DNA of 64,000 bases, from positions 2,493,501-2,557,500 of the forward strand of contig OU612074.1 of NCBI GenBank assembly GCA_914767715.1. The letters are read 5' to 3'. The first letter of the stretch is position 1, and each line of letters begins with the position of its first letter. This stretch comes from Membranipora membranacea. Taxonomy: Eukaryota; Bryozoa; Gymnolaemata; Cheilostomatida; Membraniporidae. A model generated the notes under the pieces. It had not been told where the DNA came from. It saw nothing but the letters and a program-made list of their open reading frames with translations, and did not search any database. Position numbers and translations under genes: made by a program. This document shows positions 4,122 through 63,933 of the stretch, piece after piece.

Positions 4122-6438
4122 TTTGACCAGAAAGTATACTTCATGGATACCCTAATTCTTGTATTCTTGTAATGGGAGATTTCAACCAGCTTAAATTTCG
4201 ACTAAATGGATATTATCAAACTGTCACCAAACCGACCAGAGGAACCAAGACACTCGACAAATGCTATACAAGGATCAAGGGTGCCTACAGTCAATGTCAT
4301 CAATTAGCCCATCTGGGCAGCTCTGACCATTACATTATGCATCTCGTGCCATCCTATAAACCTTTGTCAAAATTAAAACCTACGTTTACAACTCGCAGAA
4401 CATTCTCCAACAGTAATGTCGATAATCTTCAAGCATGCTTAGATACCACACTTTGGGACAATCTCACAGATGCCAATGACAACATCAACCAGCGGACTGA
4501 AACGATAACTGACTACATTAATTTCTGCACAGACCTATGCATACCACCAAAGGAAGTTAAAAAATATGCCAACAAAAAGCCGTGGATTACAAAGCGCATT
4601 CTGGATATGATAGATGAGAAACATGACGCCCACAAAAATGGAAATAAAAAACTCTACCATAAACTCAAAAAGCAAGTCTCAAAAGAAAATAAAAAAGCCA
4701 GAGAAGAATATTCCCTAAAAATCCAACAACATTTAGCCAGTGATCCTGCAAACGCTTGGAACGACATTAAAAAAAATTAGCGGACTTCCAACCAGCAACT
4801 CCAAGTCACAACCAGATATTAACTTCCAACCCGAAGAACTCAACAACTTCTTTGCCAGATTTGAGAAACAAGACACTCAGCCACCACAACCTGCTTACGA
4901 AAACCTAACTGCTCCTCCCTGCATAATAGATGAAAAATCAGTTCTGATACAACTCAAACGCCTCAACTCTAGAAAGGGTGCTGGACCTGATGGTCTGATA
5001 CCAAGAGCATTAAAACTCTGTGCTGACCAACTAGCGCCTGTAATTACGGATATATTCAACTTCTCTCTAGACTCTCAAACAACTCCTAATATATGGAAAT
5101 CGGCCATCATCAAACCACTGCCAAAAACTGACAAGCCAAATCAACTTAAACACTTCCGACCAATAGCCCTGACAAGCTGCTTATGTAAAACAATGGAACG
5201 TCTGCTGAAAAGCTATATAGTTAAAAACACTCCTCTCGACAATCACCAATTTGCCTACCGAGCTAAAAGATCAACCCAGGATGCAGTATTATGCCTTATT
5301 ACCACAATAACTAGTTACATAGACCTTCAAGCTGCCAACTATGCAAGATGCCTATTTCTCGACTTCTCATCTGCATTTAACACCATCAGTGTCAGTAATC
5401 TCCTCACAGAACTGCAACATCTAGACTCCAGAGTTACAAACTGGGTGTCGAGTTTCCTGACAGGCAGAACACAAAGAACAATAGTAAACAATATTCTCTC
5501 AACATCAATCACCACCAACACAGGAACACCCCAGGGTTCTGTCCTCAGTCCTCTATTATTCTCAGTGTATACAAATAGGATTAGGTCAGAACAGAGCAAT
5601 ATAACTATTTTAAAATATGCTGATGACACTTGTATTGTTGGTTGCATCTCTGATAATAATGACTTGTCTAATTATTTTAATGAGATCAATAGAATCTCTG
5701 GTCTATGCAAAGAACTCGACTTATTACTTAATCCTTCTAAAACCCAAGAGATGCTTTTCTCCACTAAGAGAGATAAACCTGACAGTCCTACTCTCGAATT
5801 AAATGGTGTAAATATAGATTTTTGTGACAATGTTAAATATTTGGGAGTTCTCTTTGATAACAAATTACGTTTCGAAGATCATGTCAATAATGTTGTATCC
5901 AAAGCAAATCAGAGAATGTTTGTCATCAGAACCTTTAATTATCAGAGTACAAAGCCTTTAGCCTGCATGTTATTTAAAAGTTTTATTGTATCCATTCTAA
6001 CCTACTGCCTACCTATTTTGTTCACTAGTATTTATTCACGAGACAAGAAAGCTCTGAGAAAGTTTTTTAAGCAAGGCGACAGACTAGGTCTTGATATTGG
6101 GGATCTAGATTCAGTCATATCAAAACGTACAAAGAACCTGGCCCTGCAGATAATACATGATGACGAACATTTTTTAAACAATTTTCTGAGAAACTCCCCT
6201 CAGGCAGATATCGCAGCCTTAAATACAGAACTGCCTGGGGTAAAGACTCATTCCTCAGACACTTGATTTTGATATTGCAAGATATTTTTTAATCCACTAG
6301 AAGTCAGACTTTACTTTACTCATTTTGTTTATGTTTCTTTTTGGTATTCCCTACTCATGTAACAGTATAAACACTCAATCTCGCAGCATACCTAATGTTT
6401 GTGACAAAATAAACCAACCAACCAAACCAACCAACCAT
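4122..6438 (+). mobile_element. 5'-truncated L2-clade LINE retrotransposon
   Basis: The open region begins in the middle of an APE-type endonuclease, continues through a full reverse transcriptase and ends at 6264-6266. It is followed by about 170 bases of 3' UTR and an AACC-rich tail (6410-6438) typical of LINEs that end in short tandem repeats. The L2/Maui clade is suggested by CPTRG-like TKPTRGTKTLD and HLGSSDHY in the endonuclease, and by DFSSAFNTI, FLTGR and TGTPQGSVLSPLLF in the RT. The 5' half of the endonuclease is missing. Confidence 0.88.
4172..6266 (+). pseudogene. Endonuclease-reverse transcriptase ORF of the L2 element, one frameshift
   Basis: 4172-4780 encodes the C-terminal endonuclease part (GDFNQL; HLGSSDH, the SDH catalytic region) and a lysine-rich linker. 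The frame is lost at an A8 run around 4769-4776. The next frame (open from 4740) carries on directly into the RT: HFRPIALTSCLCK, then FLDFSSAFNTI with the first catalytic Asp, TGTPQGSVLSPLLF, and YADDTCIVG with the catalytic YADD. The C-terminal connection region contains VKYLGVLFDNKLRF. All RT catalytic boxes are intact, so the copy is fairly young, but the lost 5' end and the frameshift make it non-autonomous. Confidence 0.88.
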
Positions 6439-22070: not shown

Positions 22071-25000
22071 AATTTGAATTTAACTGGATAAAGACTATAA
22101 TAACAGTCAGGTTGGCACAATAGAACCCAGGAAGAATCCTACTCCTTGGTGGAACGAATGTGGAGATCAGAATGTGTAAAGGCATGTCTAATATTGCATC
22201 ATATCATCAAAATATAATATGAAGAGCAATTACTAGGATACTAACTGCCAAAAAAACATCATTGTATTAATAGACAGCAAAGGGCAATATAACATAATAT
22301 AATATAACATAATATATAACTCATAAACAAATAAGTATTGTGTATAATTCTATTCCTAGACTTGTCCACTCCCTGACTTTAGGGGGACAACTCCTCAAAT
22401 CCTCCGATAATTATCCAAAAAACACATTATAAAATGTATTATCATTACAGTCCTGTCAGTTAGGCTGCATCCTAGAGTCGTAGTTCAGTTAATAACCCTC
22501 AAAGAGTGCTGTCACAAAACATCAGAAACAGTATTGGAAATTCAATCCCAGTCAATAAGAAGCTTTATGTGAGCATGCATGGAAGATTGTTGATGGTTGA
22601 TTGTGTTGAAATCTGCTTCAATGGAAATAAAAAACAAGATTTGTGAGATAGCAGATAGCTGCATCACATACCTGTGCTGCCTTTAAATCATCTACTTGTA
22701 ATAATCTCTTCCATATTTCACCTCTCCATGAGTCGGGTATTCCTTTCCACACTCGATTTCGTAACTTCTCCATTTTCTGAATAGAGAAATACAAATCAAC
22801 ATTTTAATTATCAGTCATGCTGATAACACAGTATAGTATGATCCCTAAATGATTGAATAAATATTACCCCAGCATCGGGACATAAAAGTTGACATGTTTA
22901 ACCTCAACGCTGGCGTAGGCTGTATTCAGTCATATACCAATTTTCACTGAAGAAGCTCAATAAAACTACCATCAACGACTATGACACTGTGATACCAAAC
23001 GAGGAGCAACTGAAGAAACAACGCAATGTCAGTTAGTTCATTCAAATAAGATGAAGCCTTAAGAAATGCAGTTGTGAAGGCTTTAGTCCGCTTGTCTACA
23101 TTCGTAGTTGCTGCTCCTCTACTGGTCACACTGCAGGTTCTCCGTGCGCCGAGCGTCAGAGGGGGTGACCAATGGAAGGGAGCAACTGGAATGCAGACAA
23201 GTGGACCAAACTTTATCTAAGTATACACAAACATGTTGGGGTCAATCTTATATCCGATGTGAGAAAAACTTATTTAGGGTTGAGATGCTATTATGAGCTG
23301 TGGCACTGTATCTGCTTGATTCCATGATAAGCTGATCTTACATGTTGAGTGAAGGGAAATGAATGTGACCGATTCATTTATAAATTATAAATAATCTGTA
23401 ACAAATCGCTGACTGTTACTCAGTCAGAACAACTGACCTCAGGTCACTCTATTAACTCTATGTTTGTTTATCAGTCATGAGGAATTAAAATAAGCACACA
23501 AAACATAAGCAGCTCATGATGCCTGGCTGCCTACAGCAGACTCATAATATAGTACAGTGCACTCCACTTAATTCAAACCCCTGGGTCCCACCAACTTGTG
23601 TCCTAATTAAGCAGAGTTTGAATTATATGACATTAAATTTGTTGAAATTTGGATGACGGGACCAGTGTCATTCGTCTGAATTAACAAGAGTTCTGAATTA
23701 TAAAGTGTGAAATAAAAGGATTACACTGTAACTTACAGCTGGGTGAGGATTACACTGTAACTTACAGCTGGGTGAGGATTACACTGTAACTTACAGCTGG
23801 GTGAGGATTACACTGTAACTTACAGCTGGGTGAGGATTACACTGTAACTTACAGCTGGGTGAGGATTACACAGTAACTTACAGCTGGGTCAGGATTACAC
23901 TGTAACTTACAGCTGGGTGAGGATTACACAGTAACTTACAGCTGGGTGAGGATTACACTGTAACTTACAGCTGGGTGAGGATTACACTGTAACTTACAGC
24001 TGGGTGAGGATTACACAGTAACTTACAGCTGGGTGAGGATTACACAGTAACTTACAGCTGGGTGATCTCCTATATAGTTCTTATTCCACTCTTTGAACAT
24101 TTTCTCCCATTTAGCTGTTCTTTCTCTCTCCTTGATCTTCTTCTCTGGGGAGTCGTCTGTAAGCACCGGTTCATCACTGAAAGATAAGATGGAAAAGATA
24201 TCATTACCACCCTGTAGGTGTTAAAATAACCACATAATAGTTTAAGCGATTGTGAAAGAATCAGTTCTTTGGTATCATTCTAGTTTTCAGGTTTTCAGTC
24301 TAATTTAGAATAGTATAGCTCGGTTCATAAACAACCTGTGGCCCTGTTTCAACTGGTTTTCATTCAAATATGAGATAAAAAGGTACTTACGTCGTAAAAG
24401 ATTTGTATATACAACCATAAAAATATTAAAAATCTAAAAAGGTATCACAAACCTGATTCTTTCACAATCACCTCAAACCTAAATTATACATATTATTGTG
24501 ATACTATTGAAGAGGTGAATCAATCACAGCGCACGGTAAGTTCACACAATATGGCCACACATTCAACGTAAATAACCAAACAACTTACTGTATGAATCCA
24601 TATCTGTCAGTAGTCTGGTATACTTTGAGTTCTGGATCCTCCCAATCATCTATCTGAGCTCCGGGATCTCGTCCCTAATGGAAGAGATAAATAGAGCAAC
24701 ATATAAACAACCTACACCACCAGTAGGTCCAGCAGACATTTTATAGCAACCCTAAAACCCAATACAGAATTCACATACCCTAGAGCAGTAAAGTATTCAC
24801 AGGAAGAAAGTCTGCCAGGCTTGAGATAACAATCTTTGTGGCTACTCAACCTGATTACTTAACATTAACTTCCACCTTAGCTAAACGATATTGGTCTAGC
24901 TAAAATTAAGCCACCCCCAAACTAACCAAACTCAATTTATTATTGGGAGACTACTTTGACAATTTTGCTGGTTAAAAAAATCGCAAGGTTGAGTCACTCA

Positions 25001-27908
25001 CCACATTCCAAAGAATGGGCGGCAAAATTGTGGGTGCCTTAAGGGGAGGCCACAATGTCTGAGCCAAGTCTGCTCTCAGTTTGTAGGCTGGTCTGAAAAC
25101 GCTTTGGGGTCCAACAAGTCCCAGAAGTCAGTGCACTGCAGTAGGATTTGAACCCACAATCTTCAACACTTTCATACTGAAGACGAACGCTCTAACCAAC
25201 TGAGCCACCTCCTACTCCTTGTTGTAGAAACGAATGATGCTTTGATCTGACCAACTATCAGTTGTGGATATCCACCATATAGGTAATAGGTCTACTTGAC
25301 CACTTATAATTGAATGTTAGAAAAAGTGGCGGCTTGAACTTTCCTTGTAAGCATCTGAGAGTCTCAAGGGATAAATTACTTGGAAGTTTACCTTTAGAGA
25401 ATTCATGTAATCAGTTCAGTGGCTCACTATTGAGTGTTGCATTGTCTTCAAACAAACACTATCAGACTAACTAGCTACCACTTATTCTAATGTAATGAGG
25501 GAGACTGATAGATAGCAGACTATCTGAATGTATTTAGGGGATAGGCAGTCTTTAGTAAAAGGTACCATCCTTATCTGAAATGGATGACACCATTCACCAC
25601 TACTGATGTGACAGGTTTGTAGCTTCACTGGGTAGCTCCGTAGATCTTGGCCTAAACAAGTTTAAGCGCTTAAACTGTGTCAGGAGAGCTGGTAGTAGCA
25701 TTTCATTATTGACCAACTTTGGGAAGTGGTTGATAATGAAATGCCACTAACAGCTATCCCGACATTGTTTATACGCCTGTACAGATCACTCAGAAATTTG
25801 AATTCCTTTGAACGTCAGCTATATGAACAGGTCAAACCGCTTCCACTCCTACAGAACCCAACCATGGGACAGAAGTACCCTATCCTAGCCTACTGGTCGT
25901 ACTTACTATGTCATATCCTAACCTACTGGTCGTACTTACTATGTCATATCCTAACCTACCGGTCGTACTTACTATGTCATATCCTAACCTACCGGTCATA
26001 CTTACTATGTCATATCCTAACCTACTGGTCGTACTTACTATGTCATATCCTAACCTACTGGTCGTACTTACTATGTCATATCCTAACCTACCGGTCATAC
26101 TTACTATGTCATATCCTAACCTACTGGTCGTACTTACTATGTCATATCCTAGCCCACTGGTCGTACTTACTATGTCATATCCTAACCTACCGGTCGTACC
26201 TACTATGTCATATCCCAACCTACTGGTCGTACTTACTATGTCATATCCTAACCTACTGGTCGTACTTACTATGTCATATCCTAGCCTACCGGTCGTACTT
26301 ACTATGTCATATCCTAACCTACCGGTCGTACTTACTATGTCATATCCTAGCCTACTGGTCGTACTTACTATGTCATATCCTAACCTACTGGTCGTACTTA
26401 CTATGTCATATCCTAGCCTACTGGTCGTACTTACTATGTCATATCCTAACCTACTGGTCGTACTTACTATGTCATATCCTAACCTACTGGTCGTACTTAC
26501 TATGTCATATCCTAGCCTACTGGTCGTACTTACTATGTCATATCCTAACCTACCGGTCGTACTTACTATGTCATATCCTAACCTACTGGTCGTACTAACT
26601 ATGTCATATCCTAGCCTACTGGTCGTACTTACTATGTCATATCCTAACCTACTGGTCGTACTTACTATGTCATATCCTAACCTACTGGTCGTACTTACTA
26701 TGTCATATCCTAGCCTACTGGTCGTACTTACTATGTCATATCCTAACCTACCGGTCGTACTTACTATGTCATATCCTAACCTACTGGTCGTACTTACTAT
26801 GTCATATCCTAACCTACTGGTCGTACTTACTATGTCGTATCGTTTGACAATCTCAGAACGTTCTCTGGCAGCATCTAGTAAGGCTTTATCACTGTCGGGA
26901 GCACCTACAGAAAACAACAAATCATTACAGTGTAAATCACATTGTGATAATATACATGTCACTAAACAATACATGGGCCTACAGGTGATAAGAGCGCTAA
27001 AGAGAGTCAGGTGGAGACGGTATACCTAGTCTGAGCACCCCAGACTTTTGCCCCCTCCCCGCCCTACGACCCTTTGTTTTCCATTCTGATTGTTATGGTT
27101 CCTGATTTATCTGTCGACCACCTAAACTAGAGGGCAGCCATGATTAGGCTGGCCTATAATAGGTCTAATGTTCATTATTGAAGTGAGTAAACGGGTCCAT
27201 TAGACAATAAATGACCAGCCGAAGGCTAATATTGCAGCAGCTGCCACTTGGCCCTAAATAATGCTGTCGAGATTGACCAAACATCTAGCCTCCTGATATA
27301 AAATGCTCAATAAGGTGGGATGATTAGGGGAAAAAAGTTAATCTCTACACAACCTGTTTATTACTGTCATAAAAACTAGACAGGCCTGATAATGAGCTGC
27401 TTAATATACTGTCACTTCCTGCTTTCCATTCTAATCACTCACCCAGTGAGATAATCACCCTGGTACGGTTACCATACAAGGCTAGCTGTATAATTAACTC
27501 TGTAATCCTCCCACTCCCTTTTTTGTGCACACAATGTCCGATAACTAATATATATTATTAGTTGTGTGGCGTACAAGTTGTAGGAAACTTGAAGCCTGCA
27601 GCTTTTATTTTACCCAATTACATATGTAAGTGAATCCACTTCAACAACTAAACAAACTCATGGAAAAACAGCCCCCCCCCCCCGCCGTTTGTGACAGTGT
27701 AGACTCTATGTGGCAGGATATTGTCCTTTGTGACAGGTGGCAACCTTTTGTGACAGGTGAAGGCATCATTTGACATAGGTATGCTCTATGTGACAGGCTG
27801 CGGCTCTATGTGACAGGCTGCGGCTCTATGTGACAGGTGATGGCCCTTTGTGGCAGAAGAAAGATGGGTACATTGTACTAGGATTATATGATCATAAGAC
27901 TTACCCAT
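13105..27908 (-). CDS. USP6NL: USP6 N-terminal-like protein (RN-tre), TBC-domain RabGAP
   Basis: Thirteen coding exons on the minus strand: 27908-27905, 26904-26831, 24674-24589, 24176-24056, 22776-22672, 21918-21794, 21562-21393, 20856-20762, 20472-20407, 19974-19875, 19303-19200, 18631-18470 and 14673-13105. All phases agree and the total gives 926 aa (human 828). The N-terminus ([12 protein letters not shown], then WEDPE and TDRYGFIH) and the whole TBC domain (about residues 103-335) match RN-tre, which acts on endosomal and Golgi Rabs and binds Eps8. Catalytic residues are present: Arg157 in IDLDVNRT and Gln194 in GYCQGMSQ. The long proline/serine-rich tail (405-926) holds PPEDY at about 459-463, the PxxDY class used by Eps8 SH3. 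Exon 1 ends ATGG, so the start codon is nearly alone in its exon; the N-terminus MGAPDSD fits the N-myristoylation pattern by sequence only. Introns 2 and 4 open with donor-site minisatellites. Confidence 0.94.
15653..15736. repeat. Three tandem 28-bp units in USP6NL intron 12
   Basis: Three almost identical copies of a 28-bp unit beginning CAACAGGTGGAACAAGC. One substitution separates the first copy from the others. Confidence 0.85.
21945..22068. repeat. AT dinucleotide microsatellites in USP6NL intron 5
   Basis: Two (AT)n tracts of about 25-30 bases separated by about 65 bases of AT-rich sequence, immediately upstream of exon 6 in the direction of transcription. Confidence 0.9.
23082..23210. 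mobile_element. Compact palindromic MITE in USP6NL intron 4
   Basis: Arms 23082-23130 and 23164-23210 pair imperfectly around a short GC-rich loop. The outer ends (TTTAGTCCGCTTGTCTACA and its partner) and the GGTCAC core match the arms of the larger element at 8985-9572. Probably a deleted derivative of the same family. Confidence 0.65.
23717..24064 (-). repeat. Donor-site minisatellite, 12 units of 29 bp (USP6NL intron 4)
   Basis: On the minus strand each unit reads CACCCAGCT/GTAAGTTAC followed by about eleven more bases, where the slash is the exon 4-intron 4 boundary at 24056/24055. The array starts at the real junction and runs into the intron. All twelve units keep CAGCT/GTAAGTTAC exactly. 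Differences are an A/T swap after TTAC and one G/C change. Since 29 is not a multiple of three, use of an inner donor would shift the frame except after every third unit. Confidence 0.95.
25008..25214 (-). mobile_element. tRNA-derived SINE with intact Pol III boxes
   Basis: Read on the minus strand, the head is tRNA-like, with box A TGGCTCAGTTGG (25207-25196) and box B GGTTCAAATCC (25154-25144) 41 bases apart, both perfect matches to consensus. A body of about 130 bases follows that is not tRNA-like. The same body recurs at 43834-43970 without the head. It lies in the USP6NL intron between exons 2 and 3, in the sense of the gene. I call it a SINE and not a tRNA gene because the cloverleaf is poor and the body is repeated. 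Confidence 0.75.
25881..26833 (-). repeat. Donor-site minisatellite, about 29 units of 33 bp (USP6NL intron 2)
   Basis: On the minus strand each unit reads GATATGACATA/GTAAGTACGACC plus about ten bases, where the slash marks the exon 2-intron 2 boundary at 26831/26830. The array begins at the real junction and fills the first 950 bases of the intron. All but two units keep GTAAGT (variants GTAGGT near 26199 and GTTAGT near 26592). The unit is 33 bp and has no stop in the exon frame, so the exon frame stays open through the whole array as repeats of [11 protein letters not shown] or [11 protein letters not shown]. Confidence 0.97.
27700..27860. repeat. Imperfect short tandem repeats (CTMTGTGACAGG)
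   Basis: About seven imperfect units of 18-25 bp built on CTATGTGACAGG or CTTTGTGACAGG, in USP6NL intron 1 close to exon 1. No splice site is included in the unit. Confidence 0.7.
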
Positions 27909-51686: not shown

Positions 51687-54600
51687 ATGGTGCAGTTTGG
51701 AGATAGAAAGCTTTCGACTATGTCAGTAGCTATTACATGCACACTATTCGTCAGTGTAGTCATCTCTGGCGCCATATTCGGTACATACCTGCTTAACAAG
51801 CTCGATGTTCTCGAACAAGAGGTGAGAATTCAGCTCATATTGGTATTATTTTATATCGGCATTTCTATTCGAATGTAAATCCGTGATTTATTTTGATTTA
51901 GACTCCAGATCAGGTCCTTGGAGCTTTCTAATCTCAGTAAATCTTCTTTATTCAAAAACACTTACTCGTCTATTGTAGCTTATGGTTGGTAATCAATATG
52001 ATAGCTCTGGCCATCAGGTTTCATTTCAATTTTGTATCCTGCATTCTATTGACAACCCTCAATCCGCATTAAAGGTGACACCTGTCACATAGTTGGTAAT
52101 ATCAGACACACTTTACTCATCAATGTCAATGGTATACGCTCACTTTAGACATAGTCTGGGACAAAAAATATCATCAATCATCACCTGCTGTGTAAAGCTA
52201 TACTTATTTACATTTACGATTAATTAAACACCATGACAACAATCTACAAAATCTTCAAAAAGCCGGAGATATATGTTAGCATTCTACCACTTTCTAGCAT
52301 TGTCATGGAGATAATGATCTATGTTAATTTTGATCAAAGCATGCCGAAAACAAAAACATTGGCTTAGTTTCCATGTGGATTGTTTTCTCTTTTGCAGCTC
52401 GTCGAACTCCACAAACTACCTGACGTCGATGTTAATGTAAGTTCTGAGTTAGTTGTTTCCTGTGACTTTTAGCCAGACAAATAATGATCTTCTTTTTTCT
52501 CCAAATCTGTATGTTTTTTGATTATTAATCATTCATACATTTTGATAATTTTGTGTGCATAAAAAAAATTTCTACAAGAACATGCATTGATAGATAACTT
52601 TCTATTGCTTCTTCGTCTGCATTATACTCATGGTTTTCATCAAACCTATTTTTGGTAGGAGGTAGCACACAACCTGAAGAAGAGATCCTATGGTAGCAGC
52701 TCATCATCATCATCCTCATCATCGTCAGGTTCAGCAGGTGGTTATGGAAGCAAGTGTCCAGCACTCTGCCCAGCCGGTCCACCAGGACCTCCCGGACCTC
52801 CGGGAATGGAAGGAGACCTTATCCCACCACCAGCAGGTAAACCATCGAGTACTATAACTAATCAGATGCTATTAGCTTTAATCAGACTAATAAGGAGAAT
52901 GTTTAGGGAGTAATGTAAAACACTGAAATATGGCTTGTCTTAAATCAGTATGTTTATATGAATAATTCAGGGAACTTATGTTTGTAAAATGTGAACTTAA
53001 TATCTGTATTGACTTGTCAAATTATAGGAGCCCCAGGACCAAAGGGACCAATCGGTGATGCTGGAGCACCTGGATACAATGGAGGCCCAGGTCCAGATGG
53101 ACCCCCAGGACCAGCTGGCCCAGCAGGCTATGGTACACCAGGACCAAAGGGACCTAAGGGACACCCAGGGGCAAGAGGAAGAAGCTACAGAGGATCTAAG
53201 GGAGAGACAGGATCAGTTGGAGCACCAGGTGGGGGGAACTACTTATAATAACATTTAGCGGTATTACTGTGATTTCAATGTCCTCAATTATTTACACTAC
53301 ATCATGTAAATACTAATTCAAAAACTGATAGCTTAAACTTTTAAAAACTCACAACAATCTCACAAAGATCACTATATTTTTCAAAAGCATCTTATAATAA
53401 CAAACGATGTGTTTCTTATAAAGGCAAAGACGGATACGCAGGAGCCCCAGGAATGGCTGGAGAGGACAACTTCTACCCAGGACCATCAGGTTATGCTGGT
53501 ATTAAGGGAGAGCCTGGTATGACAGGACCAGCTGGAAAGGTTGGATCACAAGGAAGAGTTGGTGACAGAGGAAGAGTAAGTACACAGCAACAAAGTTCTG
53601 ATGATTTTTAAGCTGTGTGATGTGTGAGACCATCTGAAGACAAATCATGCTTCAATAATGTATTTATTAGTTTGTTTTGGGAATGGTAAATTTATGTATA
53701 ATAATCACCTTGAAATAACTGCTAACCTTCTGTTCTTTGTTATGCTAGAACTACAGAGGATCAAAGGGACCTGCTGGACATGATGGTGCAACTGGTGCAC
53801 CAGGTGCACAGGGAAAACCTGGAGAGGATGGCTACGGTCTACCAGGTTAGATACTGACAACATATCAAACAAACCTTACTCATATCACACCATAAACTCG
53901 ACAACACATTGAAAAATGTAATGTTTAATTTGTATCAAAAATTTGAGTTTCGAAATGTAGAGTTTAAGTTTATTTGTGAGGCAGGCATTGAATGAAAATA
54001 TCTACATTCTAGGACCCAAGGGAATGAGAGGAAGCCCCGGTTATGCCGGTGCTAAGGGAGCCGTTGGAGCCGGTCTGCCAGGAACAAAGGGAGCTGTTGG
54101 TGACGAAGGACCTATCGGTAAACCTGCTGTTGTAAGTGGTCGCCCTGGACCTAAGGGACAACCCGGACACCAGGGGGGAGTAGGAAAACCTGGCTACTCA
54201 GTTCCAGGACCAGCAGGTATATACAATCAAATGTGTGTTTTAATCTTAGGGGGGCACTCATAATATACAGCTACAGACAAACATTGGACTCAGCATGGAT
54301 GCATACTTAGAGGCATTATTCAGATTGTTTATGGTCAACCTTGATTTAATTCACATTCAAATCTATCTAGATTACTTAAAGGACAAATTTTAACGCTATC
54401 TTACTCTATCTTATTTAAAGGACTCAAGGGAGCACGAGGACATGCAGGAGTAGATGGAGCCCCAGGTATGGCTGGAGCTCCAGGAGCTCAGGGAAGAAAG
54501 GGTGACCGAGGTAAAAGATACAGGGGAGCCAAGGGAGAGAGAGGACACCAAGGAACTAAAGGCCCAGATGGTGGTAACGGATACGGAGCCAAGGGTAAGT

Positions 54601-56050
54601 GTCGCAAATAATATATATATATATATATATTATTGACTTTATTATCACTAAACTGATGAGTACCCGAAGGCAAGTATGATCATGTTTTACATGCATGCTA
54701 TTGTATGGAGTAGCAAAGGTTAAAAAGACTTTAAAGACTGAAAAATAATTTCACTTAGTCATCTATAGTACTATGGTATCATGATTAAAACAACAAGCAA
54801 TACAAAGTAAGATATATGTATTGTCCAGTTCGATCACAAAGCTCTTTTTGCAAATTTTATAGGAGAGCCAGGACAGAGAGGATTAAGCGGATACGCTGGA
54901 GCCAAGGGAGAGGCTGGACACAAGGGACCTTCAGGCACTGCACCAGGACCACAAGGAATGAGAGGAGACGATGGATCCCCAGGATATGCTGGCGGACCAG
55001 GTGCTCAAGGAGCTAAGGGACATGAAGGCGCCAGAGGAAGGGTAAGCTGTAGTAAAGGTTTCAACATCTTTCTTGTCATTAAAGTGGCCGCAAAACAAAC
55101 ATAATTTCCATTTCACCAACTGTAAATATATATAACATATTGTAATTTGTAATTTAAATTTGTTAATTGTACTTTCCAATTGGCCAGTGCAGACAAAATT
55201 TTTTACAAATACTTATCTTCAGTCAAAAACAATTTTTAAAGAGGAATAACAAAATTTTGTTTGTGGTTGACAGAGATACAGAGGAGCCACAGGACCAAAG
55301 GGAGAGGATGGTAGAAGTGGTTCTCCAGGTGCAGCCGGAGAGGCTGGACACTCAGGATTCGGCAAACCAGGTAAATATCAACATACAATTGACTGACCAC
55401 ATTCAGTATTTGTCAGAGAACCTTGTTCATAATCATTCCACACCTCGTAAAGGAGGGTTTTGTAGGCCAGTTAAGTAAAAAATGAGTTCACCTCAATCAG
55501 CAGTATATGCAGGGCTTTAAAGCCATTGTAGTATTTTAAATCCTGAATACTTACCTCTAAATCACTCTACATAAATCGCCAACGCTGTACATCCAGGATT
55601 AGCACAAGACAAGATGACAGAGATTCGTACAAGCTTTATAATATGCATTTCAGCTTTGTTGCAAAGGGAACCAAAGATCTAAGTAATTCTCCATGACATG
55701 TGTATCCTTGTTCGTCAACTTTTAGAATGGTATAATCTGATCTTTCTTGTTATCACACTGATGCGTTTGGTCTGTTTCTCATCAGTAAATCTTTTGTTAA
55801 AGGTGCACAAGGAAATAAGGGACCAAATGGATATGCTGGCCTCAAGGGAGAGCCAGGTGTCGGATACGCTGGTCGCCAAGGTCTTCCAGGACCAGCTGGT
55901 CCAGCTGGACCAGGAATCAAGGGAGCAAGAGGAGTCTCAGGTGGCTCATTCGCTGGTACCAAGGGAGCAACTGGCATGGCAGGTCCACATGGAGGCGCTG
56001 GAGCAAAGGGACTACCAGGAGTTTCAGCTCAACTCTGGGGACATCATTAA
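51687..56050 (+). CDS. Membrane-anchored cuticle-type collagen, gene 1
   Basis: Eleven coding exons: 51687-51821, 52398-52436, 52659-52836, 53028-53228, 53424-53575, 53749-53845, 54013-54216, 54421-54594, 54863-55041, 55274-55370 and 55803-56050; all phases agree, 567 aa. The N-terminus has a single hydrophobic helix (about residues 14-36) and no other signal peptide, so a type II membrane anchor. It is followed by a short heptad region (LDVLEQELVELHKL), a dibasic LKKR/S cleavage site at about 67, a serine/glycine stretch and [14 protein letters not shown], then Gly-X-Y repeats with short breaks to VSAQLWGHH. The order TM, dibasic site, cysteine pair, Gly-X-Y is that of nematode cuticle collagens, but no orthologue was recognised. 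[SNR]YRG-[SA]-KG recurs, and phase-0 introns fall immediately before NYRG and RYRG. Glycine is mostly GGA and proline CCA, suggesting high expression. ATG follows the acceptor CAG directly, so a 5' UTR intron is likely. Confidence 0.92.
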
Positions 56051-56284
56051 ACCCATCCTTTATCTAAAACCACCATTACAGAACCAATTTTCTTCAACAA
56101 TATTTATACATTCTACTTAAAAACTTCTAACTGAATCTTTAACTTAATTGATGATTTTTAATACATTTGTCATATTTCCATTGAAGCTAATCTGTCAACA
56201 ACTAAGTAACACCCTCATCATATTTCTTAACATGCTGATAAACTTTTCACTTGTGTCACTAATGGTTTAAACTCTTTTAAAACA

Positions 56285-56290
56285 AATAAA
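56285..56290 (+). terminator. Poly(A) signal of collagen gene 1
   Basis: AATAAA about 235 bases after the stop codon, followed by an A-rich stretch. Confidence 0.6.
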
Positions 56291-57599
56291 AACTAAAAAA
56301 AACGCAAAAAATACCTGTTATGTTCAAATAACTAAATATGCAAAGTCAACACAATAATAATAGGATTAATTTAATTTGAAAATTCATTGAATACACTCAC
56401 AGGAGATTAACAATACAAAAATGTCTTCAGAGCCAATAATAATCATTCAGGTTTGGTAGTTGGCTGTACATCATTTTATTTTAATTGTTTTAACACAAGC
56501 TGATATTTTATGTACATCGGCATTTTTTACACCATGTCAGCATCTCACCAAATTACTCAACAAATTCTAAATCTTGAGGATTGGGTATCAGAATGAATCA
56601 GATTGTGCCCATAAGAGTTAAAAAGATTTTTTCCGGTGGTTACATTGGCATTATATTACCTGTGACAACAACGCATTGAATATACATCTATGTGCAAGAA
56701 AGATACAACATGTTTGAACCAATAATATAAATATGGTCTTGATTTATAGTTTGAGATTGAGACGTGTTGATATCACAAAGATTGCATGAGATAGAGTGAC
56801 CATGGCTTAGGGCATGTTTAATTATACACAAGTAATAATCAGGTTTATTTGCTTCAATGTCCTTCTTGAAATATGTACTATACTAGTGTATATCATTGAC
56901 TAAACTAGACATATGAGAGGTTTCATAAAACAAAAGATCTGTAATCCAAAAATATCATATGTATAGCTCAAAAGTTTTGATCAATTGATTAACCATCATG
57001 TTTGGAAACGTTTATATACTCGTCTCATTGTGCATCGAAGTCTTCAGGGTTTGAGGCTACACACATTCTGAAAAAAACAGTATGTTCAAAGTGCCTGGAA
57101 AGGCGCTGATAAGGTTTGTTTTATTTTTGGCTCAGTAACAATTTTGCACACAACATTTCCCATCAACTGTTTTTCCTGTATCAGTTTGACAAGCTGGGTT
57201 TTGAATAATTCTGTGCCATGTGTGTCTAAGATGGAAAAAAAATGTTGATGAAGAAATGACAAAATGTGATAAAGTGTCCAAATGATATAATGTGTCAAAA
57301 TGTGATAAACTGTCAAAATGTGATAAAGAGATGGTCCATAAGGGGAATCATATGAAACCATTACTATATTTGATTTCATGTGTTGATACAGTGTGTGTCC
57401 TCTCATGCCCTTGTTTTCTATTGCAAAGGTTTCAATCGCTTCTTGACAATTTTGACATACAAACTTGATTACATGGAAGTTAATGTCATATTTATGGTTA
57501 TAAGAGATATTTATAAGAGATATTTCGAATCAAGTAAATCCTGTCAAGTTACAGTCAGGTTTCAGAAAAGGTTTCCAAAAAGGTTTCTATTACGCATAT
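56291..57599. other. Spacer between convergent collagen genes
   Basis: No gene recognised. 57240-57330 has a few imperfect copies of GTCAAAATGTGATAAA. Confidence 0.5.
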
Positions 57600-58330
57600 G
57601 CTACGCAAAAGATATTTAGAGTTTGTTTAAACTGGAATTTTCATGGTCATTATATTATTTCTATAATGTTTCTTGACTTAGAGATAATGCTTGATTGTGA
57701 TGATCACATTATACCACTTCAAAAAATGTCTAGTTATGGAATAGCTGGATCTTCCCATAAACTGCTAGCTTTATTTTTGAATGACAGAGAACAGTATGTT
57801 TCATTCAACCAGTACAACTTCACATTGTAACCTATTCGGAAAGGTGACCCTCAAGGTTCAATCATTGCTTCGACATTCTAATCCATATTCATAAATTATA
57901 TATTGAACTTACCTCTTTTCTCTATTGTCGATGCTTACGCCGATGATACTACTTTGGTTGCCAACACTTTTCAACTGGAGAGATCTTGCAGTCTTGACCT
58001 CAGTGAGATAAACCAATGGTGTAAGTGAAACAAAATGGTCATAAATACAAAAATGTCGTACTTCTATTCTTTGTAATGCATTGCCAAACACCAAGTTTTC
58101 TTTATCAATTTCTGGTTTGGAACTCGAGAGACACACCACCACTAATCACCTTGGATATGTTATATGTGACAAGCTTTCATGGACTGATCATATTGGCTCA
58201 ATTTCAAAAAAGCTCAAAGCTTATCTTGACCTGTTTCAGGAATGCAGATTTAGCATTGAACAGAATCAATATCAGAATTCATGGTTTACGATTTTTAATA
58301 AGCTTTATTTATTGATTTATCAACATAGGG
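57600..58330 (+). mobile_element. Decayed non-LTR retrotransposon between the collagen genes
   Basis: Plus-strand RT fossil with stops and frameshifts. It shows FLDL (near 57670), YGIAGSSHKLLALFLNDRE (near 57735), GDPQGSIIAS (near 57845), YADDTTLVA (near 57935) and, in another frame, NHLGYVICDKLSWTDHI (58140-58190). The order is that of LINE RT blocks. It lies just past the stop codon of collagen gene 2, on the opposite strand, so that gene's 3' UTR may run into it. Confidence 0.8.
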
Positions 58331-58503
58331 TTACATTGATCGTTGATGAAGAGTGTATTAGTGAAATTTGGAAATTTAATTTGAAAAGTTGGAAAAAAGA
58401 AATGTTTAATTTTATATCGAGTATTTTGACTACAAATTTATTATGCGAGTTCAAAATTATGTGTATCTAAATTTTAAGTTAATTTGTTTTCATATATTGA
58501 GGC

Positions 58504-61500
58504 TTAATGTTGCATTTGATGTCCGTCTCCTCCCCATACTTCGGCTCCTTTTCCTGGTTGACCCTTTGGTCCTGCACCTCCTGGGGATCCAGCGTGACCT
58601 GCATCACCTATAAGAGTAACAATAATATAATAATAATTTGAACTTTTTTTGCTATTCAGGATCCTTTCGGGGCAAATGAGAATAAATGCTTACAGTATGT
58701 GGAATTAGATTCATAACATCTGTTAAGTGCCCCCTTGCACATGGTAAGGGTGGGCAAACTAGAGTAATGTATGAGCAACTCACCTCCATTAGCATATAGG
58801 TTACCACCAGAATGTTACATGTATTTTCAAACTGCAACGCTTTACCAAGCGTCAACCAAATGTCACAATTTTACCATGGTCAAGGTACCGAAAAGTTAAA
58901 CTTACCCTTTGGTCCTGGGAAGCTTGCACCAGCGTGTCCGGCCTCTCCCTTGAATCCTGGTCCTGCTGGACCAGCTGGGCCTGGTGGTCCATCTGGACCT
59001 GGGAATCCCATACCTGGCTCTCCCTTAACGCCGGCGTAACCGCGTGGGCCTTTGTTTCCCTTGGCTCCTGCAACAACAATTAGATAATTTTAGTCACATG
59101 ATAATACAGAGCAGAGGGCACTACAACAGATAGTTTGTACTGGCAGTCTATCATAAATAACCCAAGTATGCAAAAACCAAATAGAAGAATGTTACTTGAC
59201 ATTTACTATCAAAACTTCCCTTTCTCATCATATTCCTCGTTATTCGACTTAATTAGTTTCACCCCTTCTGAGGCTTAATTTAATCCAATCATGACATACC
59301 TTGGCGTCCAAATCCATCATGTCCTGGCTCTCCTTGTGCACCTGGTAGTCCATTTGCTCCCTTGTGTCCCATAACTCCCTTCTCTCCTCGGTAGCTCTAA
59401 AATAGAAGATGACTCATACAGGTATGGTAGCAGACATAACAATTATAATACAACCGTAAAACTAGTAACCCAGTAAGAATAAGAAAAGAATTAGTGCTCT
59501 GGAATAATCTTGAATCAAACTGACAATGTAGGTGCGAAAAGTATGATATACAAAAGTTTGATTGACTGAAAACTAAGATCTGCTTGTCTTGTAAACACTG
59601 CTATATGATACTATTTACACTTACTCTGCCTCTTGGACCTTGTTGTCCCTCTTCTCCTTGTGGTCCTGGGCCACCTGGGCCTCCTTGGGAACCGCCATCT
59701 CCAACCATACCGTCTGGTCCAGCACCAGTTCCTGGAAGACCTACATCACCCATTTCTCCCTTTGGTCCACTTGGTCCAGCATATCCAGCATTACCAACCT
59801 CACCTAAAGACAACAAATCGAGGTGATCATGCAAAGCTTAAAAATTCCCCTTAGTGAAGTTCTTTTGAAGATTATGATAATCTACATCACTTCAAGATTA
59901 CAACAATCTACTTTTCATCAGTTTATTTGCAACCAGTTTGTTGATTTTTAAATAGTTGATTAGATGATCTGCTCACCCTTAGCTCCATATCCATCTGAAC
60001 CATCTGGTCCCTTAACACCATTGTGTCCTCTCTCTCCTTTGGTTCCACGGTAGCTTCTGCCACGGTCTCCCTTTCTTCCTTGTTGGCCATCAAGTCCTGC
60101 ATCCCCTGTTGCTCCATCGAGTCCGGTGTGACCACGTTCTCCCTTTGGTCCTGAAATGCACAACATGATATTATGATTAAATGGGATATATTGCAGCATA
60201 ATTTATATTCCTTGCTATACAAACTTAAAACTTGAATCTGGTACAATAATACCCTTGGTATAGATGCAATGCTGAGCCTCACATCTATTCGCAAATTGGA
60301 CCAGCAAAGCGAAACACTGAATAGGGAATATATATATATATGACTAGAAATTCTGCAATCAGAAATGCCACCAAACTTCAGGGAAACAGAGAGCAGACAG
60401 ATTTTCCAGAGGATATACACACGTTAAGTAATATGTATTACGTTACGTATTACGAATTACATTTCATATTATGTTACGTAAGCGGTTACGTGGTTATGTG
60501 CTTACCGACTGGTCCTGGCTTTCCTTTGCCATCTTCTCCAGAGTATCCACGAGCACCAACCTCTCCGGTGAGTCCTGGTGCACCAAAGATGACTTCTCCT
60601 CGGGCACCAGTTGGTCCCTCCTCTCCTCTCTCTCCCTTGGCTCCTGCATAGCCAGCTCCAACGGCTCCCTTAGCGCCTGGGAATCCTCTACCTCCTCTAG
60701 CTCCAGCAGATCCTGAAAATCCATCAAACGATCAATGAGTGTCTCATTGCTGAGCCTTCAAAGTTTGTAGTTGATATCGCCAAGATTAACCTTGAGTCAT
60801 TGCACTAGCTTTAAGCAAGTATTTGTATGAGATATTGATCTCAATTTATTCAAGGAAGATTACTGTTTCTTACCTGGAAGACCATAGCCATCCTCTCCAT
60901 CTTCTCCATAAGCACCTGGGAGACCATTTGCGCCAGCATAACCAGTCTCTCCCTTGATTCCACGGTAACTCTGAAAATGTAAGGTAAATAAAAGGTGACC
61001 AAAAATCACTGACTGGTTTACAAAAAGACAGGATACTTTTTTTATTTTCAAGACTTTACAAGTTAGATAAATATAAAAACGTTCAAATTAATGGTGTAAT
61101 AACAAGGCAACTTACGGGGCCACGTTCTCCCTTTCTGCCTTGAGAACCATCTTTTCCAGCTGGTCCTTGCATGCCAGGCTCTCCCTTAATACCAGCATAA
61201 CCTGGTGGTCCTGGGTAGAAGTTGTCCTCGCCAGCCATACCAGCAGCTCCTGGGGATCCGTCTTTGCCTTTATGAGATACACATTGTTTGTTATAAGAAG
61301 ATGATTATGAAAACAGTTATTGTTGGGAAAAATTTAGACAAATTCATAGAATGGGAGGCCCTCCAAATGTCGACGATCCGATGGTTATCAATTGATTATT
61401 TTTGAAAAATTTTAAAATATTGGCGGAACCTGATTAGAATTCAAGGTAGCATATTTAGGTGGAGGCCATCTTGACAACAAAAAAATAGTTTGGGAGTTAT

Positions 61501-63933
61501 CTTTAGCAATGAAAGGTAAATTTAAGAGTGTGGTCTATAGCTCTATATGTGAAAAAGCAATATATTATCTACTAAGTCATACAAAAATAAATTCAAAATG
61601 CCCATAAATTATTCCATGTTAAACCTCAACTGCCAAAATCTGGATAGCTATTCGTCATAGAATAATTAATCCTACCATTATCACCAGGAAGACCCATATC
61701 TCCCTTTGGACCAACATAGCTTCTTCCGTTTGCTCCTTGGTGTCCTTTAGGTCCCTTTGGTCCGGGTCCACCATAGCCTGCTGGACCAGCTGGTCCTGGG
61801 GGTCCCTCTGGACCTGGGCCTCCGTTGTATCCAGGTGCTCCAGCATCACCAATTGGTCCCTTCGGTCCTGGTGGTCCTAAATAGCAAGAAAATCGCTTGT
61901 ATTTAATTTGAACTAAGAACTAAAAGTGGATAAGTGTGATAACTATTCGTACTGTACTGTTCAGAAATCACTGATTTAGCTTAGAAGAATTGAAAAAATT
62001 TCAGGAATGTCAAATATCTAAGCAAATTTATTCAAAGAAGAAAGAAATGGGACTTATCTCCCTTACTCAATATGAGGTGTCTTTACAAAGTCAGAATACC
62101 CTGGTTCCAAGCACACAAAAAGCCTAAGTTTTAGATCATCTTGTGACGCTTTCAAACAATTGACTGACAACCAACGTAAACCATTCACATCATGACTATG
62201 AGAGCCTGTGGTAGTTACCTGGTGGGGGAGGAAGGGCATCACCCTCATGACCTGGTGGTCCTGGGGGACCTGGGGGACCAGTTGGGCAATAAGCGGGGCA
62301 TTGGGTGTTAGCTCCCCCTGTAACAGGTTGGCTAGTTCTTGGTCGGCTTCCTGTGGGTGCATTGTTATTTCCTTGTCCCTGTTGTGAGTTTGGTTGGAAT
62401 ACATTCCATCCTGGTTGGAATATTGGTTGATCCCAAACACTTCCGTAGGATCTCTTTACATGTTCATGTACCACCTCCTAAACATCGAACATATTGCACA
62501 ATAAAAGCATGATAAGGACATACAAACGTGAAGGGAAAAGGGAAAGAGGAAAACAAAGCAAAAGCATGTCACATGATCAAAATGACTGGTTCTGATTGGC
62601 TGTTCGGTGAGAAAGAGAGCCAATGCCAGGTCACTGAATCTGATTTGGCATTGGCTATCTCCCACCCTCCAACCAATCAGAGACAAGAAATTGGCTAGAT
62701 AAAAGCTGACATAAAGAAACTTCTTAAACAATAATTTGTTGGCCGATTGATTAACACATATAGTATAAATTAGGCATAATATGTTTTTCTGAAAATCAAA
62801 ATTGCTGATTTGTCTCCTCATAATTAAGGATTACAGAAAACATTTGTTTTGATGATATAACCTAATATTCATATTTTTCCAAATTTATTCAAGTATTTGC
62901 AAATGAATAGCCGAAAAGAGCACACTGCAGTAAAACTTGACACAGAGATATTGAGATTGTCTAATGGAAGGCTTAAAAGTTTGAGAATACTATGGTGCTC
63001 TGATTGTATGGTGCCCGTTGGTTTGAGTTATAGGCTTCAATTTGTGCAACGCAATTCAATTTTGATATTAATACAAAGCGTAAAAATAATAATTTACATT
63101 TATAAAAAAACTGGCTAGAACCCAGCATTTAGATTGAGTACAGCTAGAAAGAAATAGCACATGGAACAAGGCAAAAAAGGCACATAACCCTGTGAAAGCA
63201 ACAAAAAAAGTAAAAGCCTAGCCTATGATCAATGCTTAGTGTTGGACGGATTGTTCACAGTTTACCCGCTGTCCCATACACCAAATTCTTCAATCATAGT
63301 CTATATCATAAAATGGCGAGTGGCTGAGCAACAAAAAACAAAATGATGGCCGGGTGATAAATTACCTGCTGGGGGAGGAAGGGCATCACCTTCGTCACCA
63401 GGCATTCCTGGGGGACCTGGTGGACCGGCGGGACAAGCAGTAGGGCAGTTATTATCATACCCTCCTGCTGAATCCCCGTATCCACTAGATCCTGAACCAG
63501 AGCTGGAATCCCCGTATCCTGCACTTCTTTTCACATTGTTATGTTGTGCAACCTTAAATGTTGACAATTTTTTTAGGTCAGGGGTCAATCGATAGACACT
63601 GATTCTAATTAGCATTTAATTGTTTTTTCACATCACATTTTACAGCTCAACACTTTCAAAACGATTAGCATATATAAACTCATTAATAATAATGGATCCA
63701 AGTTTATACTCATCAACCCCTTGATCTAGGAATCAAACTGTCAGCCACAAGGCAATAAATCATCATCAATAGGGAAGCCTATGACCCAGAGCGGACATTA
63801 TACTGTAACAAATTGGTTTTGAGATGTTGACACTACTTCAAAAATAATCAGTGTCAGCAAACAATGATTAGTGGCAGCGAACATGATCACTTACCGATGG
63901 GTCAACATCAGGCAGCATATGCAGATCAACAAG
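58504..63933 (-). CDS. Membrane-anchored cuticle-type collagen, gene 2 (5' partial)
   Basis: Minus-strand exons: 63933-63895 ([13 protein letters not shown], matching gene 1's second exon), 63552-63366 or 62477-62219 (alternatives), 61876-61685, 61267-61116, 60970-60874, 60712-60506, 60150-59977, 59803-59625, 59396-59300, 59067-58906 and 58607-58504. All phases agree. The exon coding the membrane anchor must lie beyond 64000. Without it the product is 529 or 553 aa, depending on the alternative exon. Gly-X-Y repeats begin after a cysteine pair (CPTAC or CPAYC) and end in [14 protein letters not shown]. Exon lengths equal or nearly equal those of gene 1 (39, 152, 97, 174, 179, 97), so the two are an inverted duplicate pair transcribed toward each other. 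Gene 2 has one more intron near the 3' end (58608-58905), where gene 1 has a single exon. An AATAAA on the minus strand near 58307 may end the transcript. Confidence 0.9.
62219..62477 (-). CDS. Alternative exon 3b of collagen gene 2
   Basis: 259 nt, starts in phase 0 and ends in phase 1, like exon 3a. It encodes [10 protein letters not shown] (dibasic site), an Asn/Gln/Pro-rich stretch ([12 protein letters not shown]), then [15 protein letters not shown]. Compared with gene 1's exon 3 ([10 protein letters not shown]...), this is the closer match at its start; 3a is closer in its Ser/Gly-rich interior. Splicing 3a to 3b would give an in-frame TGA within five codons. Alternatively 3b could belong to a transcript with its own unseen first exon. 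Confidence 0.85.
63366..63552 (-). CDS. Alternative exon 3a of collagen gene 2
   Basis: 187 nt, phase 0 in and phase 1 out. It encodes [10 protein letters not shown], a Gly/Ser/Tyr-rich stretch with GYGDSS repeats, then [15 protein letters not shown]. The acceptor is a less usual TTTAAG, weaker than the TTTAG of exon 3b, which could matter for choice between the two. Confidence 0.85.

Follow-up and report, generated by a model that had tools for sequence, protein, structure and literature searches.

Tandem arrays of donor splice sites at two introns of a USP6NL-like gene in the bryozoan Membranipora membranacea

The DNA considered here, called the window below, is a 64,000-nucleotide stretch of chromosome 10 of the bryozoan Membranipora membranacea (C10, OU612074.1, positions 2,493,501-2,557,500; genome of 339.3 Mb). 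Its minus strand carries a USP6NL-like gene in which two introns open with a minisatellite composed of copies of their own 5′ splice site (donor). The exon labels E2, E3, etc. are working names, and the numbering "intron 2", used in a preliminary description of this DNA, is provisional. The parts of the gene on which the argument turns are listed here by window position, with a slash marking the splice junction.

26831..26904, minus strand: exon E2, first codon split, ending in ...KRYDI; donor GACATA/GTAAGT, phase 0
25883..26839, minus strand: array 1, 29 whole 33-bp units read in exon register, each with nine exon-like bases followed by a donor
24589..24674, minus strand: exon E3, acceptor CCATTAG/GGACGAG; donor ACA/GTAAGT, array-free
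24056..24176, minus strand: exon E4, ending in ...NYIGDHPA; donor CAGCT/GTAAGT
23717..24064, minus strand: array 2, which starts inside exon E4 and runs across its donor; 12 units, 29 bp each
22672..22776, minus strand: exon E5, where the TBC domain begins; donor CAG/GTATGT, array-free

The phases of exons E2 to E10 are consistent, and joining these exons yields a 313-residue product, which matches human USP6NL (PDB 9ltp_A) with E = 5.9e-113 and the RabGAP-TBC domain with E = 1e-56. The earlier naming of the gene as USP6NL is thereby confirmed.

At the E2 donor, the preliminary description had noticed a 33-bp unit spanning the last exon bases and GTAAGT, repeated in about 29 tandem copies (27 of them with GTAAGT), and an exon frame open over the entire array. 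Both Tandem Repeats Finder (TRF) and a reading of the units on the minus strand agree with this anatomy. TRF places the 33-bp repeat at 25881-26841, with 29.1 copies and 95% matches. With a TRF score of 1761 (array 2 scores 663, and the next repeat of the window 161), array 1 is no chance repeat. The first nine bases of its unit, TAYGACATA, are the last nine bases of E2, and 28 more copies follow the exonic one. With the exonic copy numbered 0, GTAAGT is intact in all units except copy 7 (GTTAGT) and copy 19 (GTAGGT). Translated in the frame of the exon, the array gives a stop-free 11-residue repeat of n copies that is open through 29 of 29 units and meets a TAG directly past the final one.

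Tandem arrays commonly pose problems for assembly, and both arrays might owe their existence to an assembly error or to collapsed haplotypes. However, the assembly, tzMemMemb1.1, was built from 66-fold high-fidelity (HiFi) reads into 93 contigs according to the genome note (PMC10290214), and because of this depth, it is unlikely that the 960-bp array 1 is an artefact. Its variants are, moreover, patterned, with ten unit types among the 29 copies. Such an origin hardly deserves credence. An alternate haplotype of the genome is available as GCA_914767555.1.

Array 2 is located at the next-but-one donor after E2, that of E4, and retains GTAAGT in all 12 units. Its 29-bp period is not divisible by three, and translation continued from E4 therefore runs into stops. 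According to the TRF rows of the window, there is no array at the E3 donor or at the other mapped donors of the gene. The 29-bp unit holds a palindrome, CTGTAA-G-TTACAG, which is broken in copies 0, 1, 4, and 6, where TTACTG is found. About six residues of E4 near the array donor (24056-24076; YIGDHP as aligned) are without a counterpart in human USP6NL, a surplus that is perhaps the trace of an old donor shift.

When E2 and E3 are joined at the first donor of array 1, the product has zero insertion at the joint relative to 9ltp_A (AKYDR-GRE.GAEIEPWED in the alignment), with one additional residue in the query slightly further on. The absence of an insertion suggests that the first donor is likely the ancestral one; additional longer isoforms would be compatible with this alignment.

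The occurrence of close donor repeats elsewhere in the genome was assessed by counting triples, defined as three GTAAGT whose starts lie 20-50 bp apart, with the reversed pattern as the control. There are 2677 + 3719 = 6396 GTAAGT triples genome-wide versus 356 + 831 = 1187 for the control, a count that is weighted by copy number, relies on a single control hexamer, and does not tell real donors apart. In a 120-kb sample of other sequence, made up of 70 kb taken at 5.00 Mb on C2-C8 and 50 kb from randomly chosen places, the single hexamer GTAAGT occurs 69 times and the control hexamer 123 times; because the former is the rarer one, the excess of triples is not due to frequency alone. The preliminary description had envisaged that a genome scan might reduce the array to a local curiosity, and the count of triples speaks to the contrary, since GTAAGT is strongly enriched as close triples.

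Among the matches listed, the triples all fall within the first 1.37 Mb of chromosome 1 (C1), where they form 13 clusters, all of which were fetched (L032-L044). Their units look unrelated save for the donor hexamer, and the sizes given by TRF are 36, 27, 40, 32, 20, 14, 22, 22, 20, 16, 32, 28, and 19 bp, the 14-bp unit being irregular (TRF gives 28 and 42 too). Minisatellites with a wide range of unit sizes lie very densely in the stretches fetched around these clusters, in contrast to the 120-kb sample; this density may reflect either the way the stretches were selected, as they were chosen for arrays, or a chromosome-end effect.

One of these clusters, L042, belongs to a Rabaptin-like gene, in which an exon ending in ...QFNQPTDLS/GTAAGT has its donor spanned by 32-bp units. 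Joining its exons at the first donor gives a peptide whose residues 9-141 are colinear with positions 72-204 of PF09311; the score is 63.1 bits, well above the cut-off of 33.6. Taken by itself, in a 657-residue frame, the downstream exon scores 32.3 bits and remains just below the cut-off. The joined peptide has no match in PDB. With two arrays in USP6NL, a third in the Rabaptin-like gene, and a marked excess of triples, the formation of donor arrays looks like a recurrent process in M. membranacea.

It could be supposed that GTAAGT repeats derived from a satellite or a transposon have come to lie at exon ends by accident, as four clusters (L033, L036, L037, and L041) contain GTAAGT arrays that show no exon. 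A common source of this kind is, however, at odds with the unrelated look of the units in the 13 clusters and with the fact that array 1, used as a DNA query, has a sole match in the 339-Mb genome, namely itself (the search skips very common words). Furthermore, the units include the end of the exon to which they belong: 9-10 bp for the two USP6NL arrays, 21 bp for L042, and about 30 bp for L032. An accidental placement of satellite or transposon sequence is thus very improbable.

Pfam searches on the array strand covered upstream frames at seven of the 13 loci (L032, L034, L035, L039, L040, L042, and L043) and downstream frames at three (L035, L042, and L043). Upstream domains above the curated cut-off were found at two of the seven, namely an F-box-like domain at L032, where an LRR_4 match is weaker and below the cut-off, and a leucine-rich repeat (LRR) domain at L040; several other matches were below it, and the short exon peptides alone gave no Pfam match over the cut-off. 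The unit of L032 consists of about 30 exon bases and GTAAGT. L035 and L043 resemble exon ends, without domain support; the Prion_octapep and Cornifin matches at L035 were discarded as genes, being most likely the translation of a 24-bp array there.

Acceptors may be affected as well: at L040 (C1:397000-401500, positions 2273-2440), six 28-bp units span an apparent acceptor, with the last copy in the exon-proximal position. The exon of this array joined to the preceding one has no Pfam or PDB match, and no acceptor-spanning array was seen at the USP6NL locus. At L041 (C1:463000-467500, positions 1-975), a 57-bp unit is repeated 17 times, and most copies have TTTACTTTCTCAGGTTGAG and, on the opposite strand, a GTAAGTACGCC-like sequence; this is possibly another splice-signal array.

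Taken together, the arrays are probably best explained as junction-straddling minisatellites, recurrent in this genome, in which the first donor is used, the later copies are neutral, and the open frame of array 1 is coincidental. The spliceosome would take the exon-proximal donor, leaving the 28 further donors of array 1 as intronic and largely neutral passengers. The protein would remain unchanged because the first donor is used, and the array would be tolerated because this donor still works.

As to their birth, the arrays may have arisen by tandem duplication with two breakpoints that flanked the exon-intron junction and fell in short sequences common to both sides, and may have grown afterwards by slippage or unequal exchange. 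Collapsing array 1 to its ends leaves AAACGATACGAC on the exon side and CTAGGATAGGGT on the intron side, and GATA (4 bp) is common to both breakpoints, as expected from microhomology-mediated tandem duplication; the duplication points would then be the GATA of the exon and the GATA of the intron 33 bp further on. End microhomologies are also seen by eye at L042 (AATC) and L035 (CATACAAT). At a synonymous site, the exonic copy of array 1 has TAC, as against TAT in 28 of the 28 others, a difference to be expected if the boundary copy has been spared homogenisation; the same has been reported for an amphioxus globin gene (PMC3087553).

The open frame might be given more weight than this. If donors 2 to 29 were used too, n × 11 residues would be added ahead of the TBC domain, and the array would supply functional variants of the protein, as reported for human IFI6; the frame open over 29 units and the 27 intact donors speak in favour of such use. 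However, no sign of selection is found on the array 1 peptide, since synonymous and nonsynonymous column changes stand at 4:4 versus 11:22 among possible transitions, and the sister arrays are out of frame, with 29-bp units in the same gene and 32-bp units in the Rabaptin-like gene. A preference for units divisible by three was considered and rejected, because such units occur in three of 15 arrays (the 13 C1 clusters plus the 33- and 29-bp arrays of the window; TRF), which is below the five expected. A unit that is both divisible by three and stop-free should presumably turn up by chance about once in five or six, as estimated by ourselves from base composition. Given the 29- and 32-bp units and the three of 15, the open frame of array 1 is most likely a coincidence, and the stress laid earlier on copies "all in frame", as if by design, does not stand. 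A role of the array as a source of variants is accordingly viewed as unlikely.

The extra donors might instead be selected as such, either as redundant U1 sites that aid a weak exonic side (ATA or GCT before the junction and not CAG) or as splicing decoys. The base at -1 is not G in six of six array donors (ATA, GCT, TCT, ACT, GGT, and CCA; the two of the window plus L032, L035, L042, and L043, of which L035 and L043 are without domain support), versus G at -1 in four of seven array-free USP6NL donors (E3, E5, E6, E7, E8, E9, and E11; E10 is omitted, its end being uncertain), a comparison of small numbers from a search that required GTAAGT. The genome-wide enrichment of GTAAGT triples would be in line with selected donors as well. 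On the other hand, a search based on GTAAGT favours donors that are strong on the intron side, some of the GTAAGT arrays show no exon, and conservation in the donor columns of array 1 does not exceed that of the remaining columns (variable columns: two of six in the donor versus six of 27 elsewhere). Selection for the additional donors is therefore judged improbable.

Several results weigh against the minisatellite explanation preferred here. At the gene itself, joining E4 and E5 at the first donor yields a product that exceeds human USP6NL by about six residues, so that homology favours first-donor use less cleanly than at E2/E3, and the ends of array 2 share a microhomology of 1 bp only. In the predicted fold of array 1, the first donor of E2 is 0.44 unpaired versus 0.54-0.91 for the others and thus ranks last in accessibility among the 27 GTAAGT sites, so that structure does not explain the choice of the first donor. 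Across the genome, apart from the properties of the triple count given above, the 120-kb sample contains no GTRAGT-bearing array, as against about one predicted from the density at the chromosome 1 end. Among the 13 C1 clusters, L042 is the only one with domain evidence across the donor. The array exon of L032 itself has no domain match in Pfam, the 20-bp GTAAGT array of L040 begins about 43 bp inside the intron that follows the exon with the apparent acceptor array, off the junction, and exon location is unsupported for eight of the 13 (L033, L034, L036, L037, L038, L039, L041, and L044), the frames of L034 and L039, the two of these eight that were checked in Pfam, having no match. Finally, an exon scorer, not used as proof, gave support that is weak overall, with several clusters looking non-exonic: the fraction of controls scoring as high as the cluster ranged from 0.04 to 0.83 and was ≤0.16 in eight of 13. 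This scorer was trained on the USP6NL gene, where one of 11 training acceptors (E12) is without AG and probably wrong, and its best donors in the window are its own training exons; the controls were L045-L061, seven at 5.00 Mb on C2-C8 and ten at random places.

In the predicted fold of array 2, the first donor of E4 is 0.51 unpaired and the others about 0.18, the first being the most accessible. Masking of the extra donors by structure would fit this array; it was rejected as a general mechanism, array 1 being contrary to it.

Tandem repeats over exon-intron boundaries, mostly named mirages, have been described in amphioxus for Adh3, the globin genes BflGb6 and BflGb9, TnC, and PGBD5 (PMC3087553 and PMC3902484). 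They are located at donors and acceptors, many copies bear splice signals, and the Adh3 data and reverse transcription PCR of the globin genes are said to show no disturbance of splicing (PMC3087553, PMC3902484). The units are 10-72 bp long in Adh3 and 150-160 bp in the globin genes (PMC3087553). Among the papers listed in literature searches on such arrays in general, descriptions were met with only in these two amphioxus papers, and a narrow search, with most subscription papers and all preprints outside it, found no bryozoan report of junction-spanning arrays. The parallel with mirages drawn in the preliminary description holds as far as anatomy is concerned (PMC3087553), the units at USP6NL E2 and E4 and at the Rabaptin-like L042 likewise spanning the exon-intron boundary. 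The host differs, being a bryozoan and not amphioxus, which is a matter of range rather than anatomy. The bryozoan case differs further in that two introns of a single gene carry 29 and 12 copies, with array 1 happening to be in frame, and the 33-bp unit of array 1 is to be set against the sizes in Adh3 and the globins.

The minisatellite of human IFI6 (6-16) reportedly has a 12-bp unit that is in frame, and the potato RdRp gene is said to be a case of intron gain by tandem duplication. Introner-like elements are dispersed copies of one donor-carrying sequence; they resemble the present arrays in that a donor-carrying sequence recurs in a genome, whereas array 1 has one genome match and each locus seen here has its own unit. 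The IFI6 minisatellite gives multiple splice donors, of which downstream units are used (Turri et al. 1995, as cited in PMC4526556). It is thus similar to array 1 as a minisatellite with multiple donors, but alternative donor use is reported for the human gene, while for the bryozoan array it is hypothetical. In the Rogers model, as outlined in PMC3087553, introns are gained via tandem duplication of an AGGT-bearing sequence. Here, too, splice signals are duplicated in tandem, but the bryozoan intron pre-exists, the duplication is at its donor, and no new intron is seen.

In the literature surveyed here, the known junction-spanning minisatellites belong to a few amphioxus genes and a single human gene. 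Because three bryozoan donor cases are supported by homology, two of them in one gene, and are accompanied by the excess of triples, the process appears to extend beyond amphioxus, which suggests that it is neither specific to that lineage nor rare. It is quite possible, though short of probable, that splice junctions in M. membranacea are hot spots of minisatellite birth, that introns beginning with an array of their own donor may number in the hundreds, the spliceosome picking one of up to dozens of near-identical donors, and that junction-spanning arrays originated independently in bryozoans and cephalochordates. If so, it would amount to a large natural experiment in donor choice. The arrays allow tests of how the spliceosome chooses among up to 29 near-identical donors, as well as of a role in intron sliding or intron gain.

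Donor arrays also call for caution in gene prediction. The genome note mentions "particular gene structures" as one possible cause of the low BUSCO (Benchmarking Universal Single-Copy Orthologs) score (PMC10290214); that donor arrays are behind this score is a guess.

Aside from the USP6NL-like gene, the window contains an open frame for a reverse transcriptase at 4737-6263 on the plus strand (PF00078, E = 8.6e-33), which is probably a retrotransposon without long terminal repeats (non-LTR). At about 52600-63600, short collagen-like open frames resembling cuticle-type collagens are clustered on both strands, and one piece matches PF01391.

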